Assembly (NCBI GenBank): GCA_015057865.1
Contig: SVDH01000010.1
Span: 1 to 64,000, forward strand
DNA: 64,000 bases
Origin: Lachnospiraceae bacterium
Lineage (GTDB): Bacteria > Bacillota > Clostridia > Lachnospirales > Lachnospiraceae
Direction of reading: 5' to 3'
Below are positions 21,366-24,406 of the stretch, one piece after another; positions within the stretch are counted from its first letter, which is position 1, and every line of letters begins with the position of its first letter. Below the pieces are notes generated by a model. That model saw only the letters and a program-made list of their open reading frames with translations, was not told the DNA's origin and ran no database searches. The translations under genes and the position numbers were made by a program.

Positions 21366-22382
21366 TTATTCTGCAGCCGGAATCGGCTCATAGCCTTCCG
21401 GAACCTGAATTCCAAGTGCTTCGCAGATTTCCGGATTGTACTCTTTTGTAAATGCGTCTGCATACTGGATCTCCATTGTGGACGGATCAGCACCGTTTGC
21501 AAGGATCTCTGCTGCCATCTTACCGGTCTGTACACCAAGGTCATAGTAGCTGATCGACAGTGTTGCGATACCTGCTGCGCAAAGACCTTCTTCACCTGCG
21601 ATTACCGGAATCTTTGCATCAACAACGATATTCTTGATGGTCTCAACGCCGTTTGCCATCGTGTTATCGGTCGGAACATACAGTGCGTCGCTTTCCTGGC
21701 AAGCCTTTGTTACAACAGACTGAATCTCGTTGGAATCAGCTGCTGTGTACTCTGTATAAGAAAGACCGTCTTCTTCCAGAGCTGCTTCGAACTGTTTTGC
21801 CTGGAAAATGGAGTTCGGCTCAGCAGAGCAATAGATGATACCGATCTGCTTTGCATCCGGTAAAAGCTCTACCAGCATATCTTCCTGACCGTCGATCGGT
21901 GCCAGATCAGAAGTACCGGAAACGTTGATGCCTGTTGTGCCGTTGAATGCGCTCGCATCCTGGCCAAGAGCAGTTGCATAGTCTGTTACAGATGTTCCGA
22001 GGATCGGAATATCAGCTGTACCTGAAGTAGCTGCCTGCAGTGACGGTGTTGCGTTTGCAAGGATCAGATCTTTCTTCGCGGAAACGAATCCGTTAACGAT
22101 CGTGGTATTGTTTGCTGCTTCACCCTGAGCGTTCTGAACGTCAAATTCTACGCTTCCTTCACCTAATGCCTCAACGAGTGCATCCTGGAAGCCCTGTGTA
22201 GCTGCATCCAGAGCCGGATGCTCTACGTGCTGTACGACACCAACCTGATATACTGTTCCGCTTGCAGCCGCTTCGCCGCCTGCAGAACCTGCTGCTTCCT
22301 GTCCGCCACCGTTAGAACCGCAAGCTGCCAGCGCTGCTGCCATAGCTGCGATCACTGCAATTGCTAAAACTCTTTTTTTCAT
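21366..22382 (-). CDS. ABC transporter substrate-binding lipoprotein, TrpX-like (ABC_sub_bind family)
   Basis: About 338 residues with a lipoprotein signal (KKRVLAIAVIAAMAAALAAC, Cys21) and the family hallmark VGVVQHVEHPALDAATQGF followed by ANATPSLQAAT and DIPILGTSVTDY. TrpX-type proteins are linked to tryptophan uptake and Trp T-boxes; here the gene follows a T-box-controlled trpB2, which supports that role. No permease or ATPase follows, so it must share one encoded elsewhere. The ATG at 22382 is used, since the track start is a TTG. It has its own strong promoter. Confidence 0.82.
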   Translation of the reverse strand: MKKRVLAIAVIAAMAAALAACGSNGGGQEAAGSAGGEAAASGTVYQVGVVQHVEHPALDAATQGFQDALVEALGEGSVEFDVQNAQGEAANNTTIVNGFVSAKKDLILANATPSLQAATSGTADIPILGTSVTDYATALGQDASAFNGTTGINVSGTSDLAPIDGQEDMLVELLPDAKQIGIIYCSAEPNSIFQAKQFEAALEEDGLSYTEYTAADSNEIQSVVTKACQESDALYVPTDNTMANGVETIKNIVVDAKIPVIAGEEGLCAAGIATLSISYYDLGVQTGKMAAEILANGADPSTMEIQYADAFTKEYNPEICEALGIQVPEGYEPIPAAE

Positions 22383-22421
22383 TTTCAAAATTCTCCTGTC
22401 AACAAAATTTCACTTTGACAC

Positions 22422-22482: not shown

Positions 22483-23871
22483 TTAGAACTCATTTCCCGG
22501 GAATTTCGGAATGCCTGCAAATCCCTTTGCAAGATCCTCATCCGTCGGAATGTAATCCGTCATCTCACCGTCATGGAATCTCTCATATGCTACCATATCG
22601 AAATATCCTGTTCCTGTCAGACCGAATACGATGGTCTTCTCTTCGCCGGTTTCCTTACACTTCAGTGCTTCATCGATCGCAACACGGATCGCATGGCTGC
22701 TTTCCGGAGCCGGCAGGATGCCTTCAATTCGGGCAAACTGTTCTGCTGCTTCGAATACCGCAGTCTGCTCAACCGCAGTTGCTTCCATCAGACCGTCATG
22801 ATACAGCTGAGACAACGTCGTGCTCATGCCGTGGAATCGTAAGCCGCCTGCGTGGTTTGCGGACGGAATGAAGCTTGATCCAAGCGTATACATCTTCGCC
22901 AGCGGACAGATCATACCTGTATCGCAGAAATCATAAGCAAATACACCGCGTGTAAAACTCGGGCAGGATGCCGGTTCGACAGCTATAATGCGGTAATCTT
23001 TTTCACCACGCAGCTTCTCACCCATAAACGGCGCGATCAGTCCGCCAAGGTTTGAACCGCCGCCTGCACAGCCAATGATGATATCCGGGTCAATGCCGTA
23101 TTTATCCAGCGCTGCCTTGGTCTCAAGACCGATAATAGACTGATGCAGGAGCACCTGGTTCAAAACACTTCCCAGAACATAGCGATAGCCTTCATTCTGT
23201 GTTGCCACTTCAACCGCTTCAGAGATCGCGCAGCCAAGACTTCCGGTCGTCCCCGGATGCTCTGCCAGGATCTTTTTACCGATCTCAGTTGTCATTGACG
23301 GAGACGGCGTTACGGTTGCGCCATAGGTGCGCATAACCTCTCGACGGAACGGCTTCTGCTCATAGGACACCTTGACCATGTAAACCTTGCAGTCAAGGTC
23401 AAAGTAAGAGCATGCCATGGACAGTGCGGTTCCCCACTGACCTGCTCCGGTCTCTGTGGTAACACCTTTTAAGCCCTGCTTCTTTGCGTAATAGGCCTGT
23501 GCGATCGCAGAATTTAATTTATGGCTTCCACTGGTGTTGTTTCCCTCAAATTTATAATAGATCTTTGCCGGCGTGCCCAGCTTCTCTTCCAGACAATATG
23601 CACGGACAAGCGGTGACGGACGATACATTTTATAAAAATTACGGATTTCTTCCGGAATCTCGATATAAGCATCCGTATCGTTCAGTTCCTGATCTACCAG
23701 CTCTTCACAAAAGATCGGTGCAAGCTCTTCCTTTGTCAGCGGCTGATGTGTTCCCGGGTTCATAAGCGGCGCCGGCTTATTCTTCATATCCGCGCGCACG
23801 TTATACCAGGATGTTGGCATTTCCTGTTCTTCCAGATAGATTTTGTAAGGGATCTTTTTCTCTTCTGACAT
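22483..23871 (-). CDS. TrpB2-type tryptophan synthase beta chain-like PLP enzyme
   Basis: 462 residues, longer than classic TrpB and matching the TrpB2 class. GNNTSGSHKLNSAIAQAYYAK carries the PLP-binding Lys. TETGAGQWGTALSMAC, GCAGGGSNLGGL (phosphate-binding glycine loop) and the final GLTGTGYFD are also seen. It joins indole and serine to tryptophan; TrpB2 can act without TrpA, as a salvage enzyme for free indole. It is controlled by a tryptophan T-box and paired with a TrpX-like gene. The ATG has AAGGAGG upstream. Confidence 0.9.
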   Translation of the reverse strand: MSEEKKIPYKIYLEEQEMPTSWYNVRADMKNKPAPLMNPGTHQPLTKEELAPIFCEELVDQELNDTDAYIEIPEEIRNFYKMYRPSPLVRAYCLEEKLGTPAKIYYKFEGNNTSGSHKLNSAIAQAYYAKKQGLKGVTTETGAGQWGTALSMACSYFDLDCKVYMVKVSYEQKPFRREVMRTYGATVTPSPSMTTEIGKKILAEHPGTTGSLGCAISEAVEVATQNEGYRYVLGSVLNQVLLHQSIIGLETKAALDKYGIDPDIIIGCAGGGSNLGGLIAPFMGEKLRGEKDYRIIAVEPASCPSFTRGVFAYDFCDTGMICPLAKMYTLGSSFIPSANHAGGLRFHGMSTTLSQLYHDGLMEATAVEQTAVFEAAEQFARIEGILPAPESSHAIRVAIDEALKCKETGEEKTIVFGLTGTGYFDMVAYERFHDGEMTDYIPTDEDLAKGFAGIPKFPGNEF

Positions 23872-23925
23872 AATAAATACCTCCTTGTCAGGTTGGTGGG
23901 GTGTAGGTCCGGGTTCTTCAAAAAA

Positions 23926-24084
23926 GTATAAGCTACGGATTGCTCCGCACTTCGTGCTCCCACAATCCTACAGCCATTCGCAATCCGGCCAACAGGCCTG
24001 CTTGCTCATAACTGTTGCCTTGCGCCATGTCTGAGAAATATCTTGCAAGCAAGTATTTCTCAGCCGCGCCGCAAGAGCTTATAC
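23926..24084 (-). other. 159-nt cloverleaf-shaped element in the trpB2 leader
   Basis: A closing helix GTATAAGCT/AGCTTATAC (9 bp, perfect) joins three back-to-back hairpins. These are 24020-24074 (TTGCG/CGCAA then the perfect 10-bp CTGAGAAATA/TATTTCTCAG), 23987-24019 (8 bp with one bulge, CAACAG/CTGTTG) and 23936-23987 (8-bp CGGATTGC/GCAATCCG with GCAC-TTC-GTGC). Almost no unpaired bases separate the arms. It lies between the T-box terminator and the trpB2 RBS. The 67-codon ORF across it is not thought to be a gene. Function unknown. Confidence 0.65.
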
Positions 24085-24087
24085 ACA

Positions 24088-24400
24088 TAAAAAGAACCCA
24101 TCCCAAACAGTTACTGCTGGGACAGGTTGATCTCATCTACCTGCGGTGCCACCCGGCTTGATGCTTTCACATCCACTTAGCGCATACTCAGGATCTGCCG
24201 GAACACCTATTCCTTTGAAAGCATACCATCATATGCCAAACTTTGTTTACGGAGGTTTGAATCTCCGTCTCCCATACTCTGTAAAACATTTCTGGTCGCC
24301 CTCAGAAGTCCATTCGGCAAAAGCACTTTTGCTGCAATCCCACCGCCTGCAGCTCTCTCGAAAAAGGAGGCTATCGCTTACTCACTCTTCTTCAACGGTT
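24088..24400 (-). ncRNA. T-box riboswitch, tryptophan-specific
   Basis: On minus the T-box sequence GGGTGGCACCGCAGG is at 24154-24140. A stem III-like hairpin (ACGGAG/CTCCGT) lies upstream. The specifier is read as TGG at 24312-24310, in CGAATGGACTTC, which fits the usual codon-plus-A context and the trpB2 target. The terminator alternative (CCCAGCAG-TAA-CTGTTTGGG then TTCTTTTT) spans 24128-24088. Uncharged tRNA-Trp would favour the antiterminator and allow trpB2 transcription. Confidence 0.88.
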
Positions 24401-24406
24401 TCACAA

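Follow-up and report, generated by a model that had tools for sequence, protein, structure and literature searches.

A copy of the Clostridiales-1 RNA in the trpB2 leader

The cloverleaf that separates the T-box from the coding sequence of trpB2 is a copy of the Clostridiales-1 RNA (Rfam RF01699), very probably a dispersed mobile element recently inserted in the trpB2 leader and probably a passenger there rather than a dedicated regulator of that gene. It was found in the window, that is, the whole stretch of 64,000 nucleotides of Lachnospiraceae DNA that was analysed. We regard RF01699 as a dispersed, MITE-like mobile element with an RNA core because terminal inverted repeats (TIRs) and 7-bp target duplications occur in several genera, because empty sites exist and because the copies are many. 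At the level of sequence comparison, family identity, structure, residence at many unrelated sites, three empty sites in a congener and TIRs with 7-bp duplications in related genera are all established. RF01699 was reported by Weinberg et al. in 2010 as a probable RNA annotated 'cis-reg: probably not', and the main text of that paper gives it no function (PMC2864571). To that table entry the present analysis adds inverted-repeat ends, target duplications and empty sites, and an RNA family unexplained since 2010 thereby gains a functional handle, its mobility. A limited search of open papers, including PMC2864571 without its supplements, found no report that RF01699 is mobile.

The leader and the element are composed of the following features, all on the minus strand of the window.

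22483-23871, minus: trpB2, tryptophan synthase beta-like, 462 aa (open reading frame, homologues)
23880-23886, minus: Shine-Dalgarno AAGGAGG of trpB2, kept also in the empty-site congener (sequence, leader comparison)
23926-24084, minus: Clostridiales-1 RNA element, RF01699, four-way junction with a 9-bp closing helix (Rfam match 23927-24083, fold)
23926-23934, minus: closing helix, 3' arm AGCTTATAC (fold, sequence)
23937-23968, minus: hairpin 3, GGAUUG..GGGAG..CGGAGCAAUCC, including the GCACTTCGTGC arm (Rfam alignment, fold, covariation)
23970-24015, minus: hairpin 2, conserved internal loops AUGAGCA / CGGAUUGCGAAU (Rfam alignment, fold, covariation)
24019-24075, minus: hairpin 1, long stem of variable sequence with a conserved loop of G(CUUG)C type (Rfam alignment, fold, covariation)
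24076-24084, minus: closing helix, 5' arm GTATAAGCT (fold, sequence)
24089-24128, minus: intrinsic terminator hairpin of the T-box with T-run (-18.3 kcal/mol plus T-run)
24115-24404, minus: T-box leader RF00230, UGG specifier at 24310-24312 (Rfam match below gathering score)

The 159 nt from 23926 to 24084 form a four-way junction in which a perfect 9-bp closing helix, GTATAAGCT/AGCTTATAC, holds three adjoining hairpins. This architecture had been described in the first-pass annotation and is real, since both strands fold far below shuffled energies: the plus strand reaches -60.7 kcal/mol (z -6.9) and the minus strand -76.9 kcal/mol (z -7.2), with 0 of 200 shuffles as stable in either case. 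The minus strand, which is the sense strand of trpB2, is the biologically relevant one. The same annotation knew no named RNA family of this form; such a family exists, and the Rfam scan matched RF01699 to minus 23927-24083 over the full length of the model (1-166 of 166) with 102.2 bits (E 5e-22), against a gathering cut-off of 48 bits. The Rfam consensus structure coincides with the independently computed minimum-energy fold of the minus strand. Alignment, fold and covariation place in the window copy the closing helix, the three hairpins and all of the loops AUGAGCA, GCGAAU and GGGAG/CGGAG, and the GCACTTCGTGC arm makes up the apex of hairpin 3, inside the conserved GGGAG...CGGAG hairpin of the family. 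Well above the cut-off in sequence and structure, the copy also comes from the same taxon as the described family (Lachnospiraceae, Clostridia).

As had been proposed, the cloverleaf lies in the 5' leader past the T-box decision point, between the terminator and the Shine-Dalgarno sequence; it begins about 5 nt beyond the T-run, in sense with trpB2, whose Shine-Dalgarno sequence follows about 40 nt downstream. Its upstream neighbour is a T-box leader with a UGG specifier, a GGGTGGCACCGC motif and a terminator, although the match to RF00230 (74.3 bits, E 4e-16) is under that family's gathering score of 93. The cloverleaf stands apart from this T-box: it lies 3' of it as a unit of its own and does not belong to that family. 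Downstream of trpB2, the open reading frame at 21366-22388 (minus) resembles an ABC substrate-binding lipoprotein when judged by eye from its sequence, and plausibly shares a transcript with trpB2 under the UGG T-box.

Empty sites and dispersal

The trpB2 leader of the congener G002 shares its T-box, its terminator and its ribosome site with this one but lacks the element. The available part of trpB2 is 95% identical; as far as the T-box terminator the two leaders share 87% identity, and their match picks up again at the Shine-Dalgarno sequence, with the matching leader blocks 193 nt apart in this genome versus 23 nt in G002. Outgroup trpB2 leaders likewise run from the terminator straight to the ribosome site. 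Only 2 of the 100 trpB2 loci scanned hold an RF01699 copy, namely the window and one locus in another genus (G032), where the copy (L051:2994-3150, minus) lies in sense directly behind that gene's own T-box terminator. On these comparisons the element is not a conserved part of the trpB2 leader, and one empty congener site together with outgroups devoid of the element favours insertion over loss, short of proving it.

Beyond trpB2, this genome contains 11 RF01699 copies, and 25 of 61 relatives carry the family with 1 to at least 35 copies per carrier, copy numbers that are lower bounds in these incomplete genomes because copies break assemblies at contig ends. The family was present in 12 of 293 genomes sampled across the class and in 0 of 14 control genomes; among the 61 relatives and the 293 class genomes, carriers belong mostly to the window's own family. 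No match was obtained on plasmids, and in phages there were only partial matches, in unannotated gut phage contigs. The copies are scattered at unrelated genes. A likeness to dispersed palindromic elements had been suspected from the outset, and many genomic copies at unrelated genes had been named beforehand as the outcome pointing to a mobile repeat, which is the outcome obtained.

For three copies of this genome (L003, which is the window copy, L002 and L008) the corresponding sites in G002 are empty, and of the two outside the window one is right after a stop codon TAG and the other at a stop codon. At the L009 site both congeners retain remnants of an internally deleted element. Two sites common to sister species hold copies with differing hairpins: in the pairs L001 and L217, and L005 and L216, the insertion site is one and the same and the copies differ in the sequence of hairpin 1 with pairing kept, a pattern that would fit an exchange of copies or a second use of the site. 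Tandem copies were observed at L184, L185, L186, L187, L195 and L205, several neighbours having one closing-stem strand in common.

Ends of the element and its possible movement

In G029, G004, G010, G005 and other genera an additional 3' arm, complementary to the start of the element, extends the unit past the Rfam boundary, and the unit then reads GATRCCAGGGTCAAAAG ... CTTTTGACCCCAACATC; the TIR in these related genera is GATRYYRGGGTCAAAAG, and a second end sequence, TGAGCCAAGGGACAAA ... TTTGTCGGGCAACTCA, is found in G005. Among 24 copies of other genera with a recognisable 3' TIR, 13 are flanked by duplications of exactly 7 bp, ATTTTAT, ATAGTAT and ATTATAT among them, and 15 by duplications of at least 6 bp, while a permutation test (5000 permutations) returned a mean of 1.1 and a maximum of 6. 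TIR-only derivatives, 36-70 bp long and devoid of the RNA core, also occur, and one of them has ATTATAT on both flanks. The window copy has no 3' TIR arm, only its palindromic closing stem, and no evident target duplication apart from a weak CTTTTT repeat on either side. Other copies of the window's genus similarly lack the 3' arm and a clear duplication, and end in the closing stem, often lengthened by pairing with the flanks. Because the ends are palindromic and the 3' inverted-repeat arm is missing, a different route of movement is possible in this genus, and RF01699 subfamilies may therefore move by different routes.

RF01699 resembles bacterial MITEs in being short, without an open reading frame and dispersed, in its empty sites and TIR-only derivatives, and, in related genera, in its TIRs and target duplications of constant length. 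It differs from them in a structured and strongly conserved core with constraint specific to one strand, in the missing 3' TIR arm of copies from the window's genus, and in that no partner transposase was found in the loci inspected. Loci with TIR matches beyond the listed copies proved to be core copies, fragments or TIR-only derivatives, and no transposase of an autonomous parent stood beside those inspected. As universal partners, a Y1 transposase (PF01797), with no match in the copy-rich G004, and a reverse transcriptase (PF00078), with no match in G000 (this genome), G010 or G032, were both rejected as not consistent with copy number. There is a single case (L158, G029:C29:36699-37232) of a copy whose 5' end exactly adjoins a broken Y1 (IS200-like) transposase frame.

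Group IIC introns and IS200/IS605 elements insert 3' of terminator hairpins or at T-rich targets, rely on structured nucleic acid and leave no target duplication. Copies of the window's genus are similar in siting, structure and absent duplication, but the missing reverse transcriptase and Y1 matches in the genomes just named, and the fact that Rfam recognised no intron domains in the window, set their system apart. At 7 of 134 copies a terminator hairpin with T-run stands directly ahead of the element in sense; the opposite side has 0 of 132, and other offsets give about 0-2 per 130, a contrast suggestive of insertion directly behind terminators in sense. Promoter-like sequence ending just before the 5' end was seen at 18 of 134 copies against 4-11 in other intervals, a modest excess; we treat both patterns as leads and not as findings. 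A bias in orientation towards the downstream gene (53 of 79, on crude open reading frame calls) vanished under stricter gene calls and is therefore not claimed.

The preferred explanation is thus that RF01699 is a mobile element that measures roughly 150-220 bp, carries a structured RNA core and lacks a protein gene; a putative transposase acting in trans would spread it by DNA transposition. Its insertion at trpB2, in sense and immediately 3' of the T-box terminator, would postdate the split of the species from the congener. The element would then be transcribed only on read-through of the T-box, as part of the leader, and fold independently; most likely a passenger, it may at most alter transcript stability.

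Constraint on the RNA strand and alternative explanations

Loss of pairing in homologues had been set out in advance as the result that speaks against the structure; pairing was instead found to be strongly kept. Standard pairs fill 91.9% of the paired cells in an alignment of 88 distinct copies, versus 34-42% in slid controls, and both sides have changed at 60 of 61 pairs, figures that lean towards structure because the alignment was fitted to it. In hairpins 2 and 3, G-U outnumbers A-C by about 64:18 in the summed table, an excess that is weaker in hairpin 1 and absent in the closing stem, although kinship of the copies inflates both pair and wobble counts. This distribution suggests single-strand constraint on the 3' half of the Rfam strand, and a closing stem that changes in the manner of a DNA inverted repeat. 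As conserved internal loops and wobble asymmetry exceed the needs of a plain MITE, the RNA may do something.

A purely DNA-level palindromic repeat, REP-like or MITE, whose hairpins serve DNA recombination alone and whose RNA is not under selection, would be a more restricted version of the preferred explanation, and both can hold. The TIRs with 7-bp duplications, the TIR-only derivatives that move without the core, and the scarcity or absence of a G-U excess in the closing stem and hairpin 1 all agree with it; the strand-specific wobble excess and sequence-conserved internal loops of hairpins 2 and 3 do not, nor does retention of the core in copies with differing ends, and we hold it to be possible but somewhat improbable. 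Slightly more doubtful is the idea that RF01699 is a selfish cassette of structured RNA that spreads with differing sets of ends, TIRs with 7-bp duplications in some genera and palindromic ends in others, and that it tends to land in sense-transcribed spots (behind terminator T-runs or -10 boxes) as its folded RNA is needed for spread or host tolerance. The conserved loops, the strong covariation and the 64:18 ratio could also be expected of a multicopy family of trans-acting small RNA genes with a function of its own, spread by duplication, to which the promoter-like sequence before 5' ends would also belong. That promoter enrichment is weak, however, many copies lie right behind a coding sequence or terminator with no promoter, copies per genome range from 0 to at least 35 between genera, and presence at single sites varies within a genus, so that we consider this family of genes unlikely.

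The first-pass annotation had suggested that the cloverleaf adds a second cis-regulatory layer to trpB2 (ligand sensing, processing or stability) after the T-box decision. Its sense orientation, its site between terminator and ribosome site, its very stable fold and the independent copy at the same position in another genus are what such a layer would predict. The suggestion is nevertheless not supported because other copies lie in scattered places next to unrelated genes, and because at trpB2 the congener and almost all loci scanned (98 of 100) lack the element; the published annotation 'cis-reg: probably not' (PMC2864571) also stands against it. The vacant site in the congener and the 100 trpB2 loci scanned led to the rejection of cis-regulation of trpB2, which we judge very unlikely. 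A passenger is more probable than a second trpB2 switch because the named family behaves like a jumping repeat that recently landed after the T-box, and a false lead, the riboswitch-like second layer, is thereby removed. The insertion could still affect trpB2 mRNA incidentally.

If the RNA strand is truly selected, the mobile element preferred here would stand as a clear example of a MITE in bacteria that carries a large structured RNA, and pipelines labelling RF01699 as a small RNA gene would need a caveat. Another dispersed REP-like palindrome, with the core GGTGCCAGGCACC, occurs in the upstream flank of one copy in this genome (L006, G000:C46) and at many places in the congeners G001 and G002.
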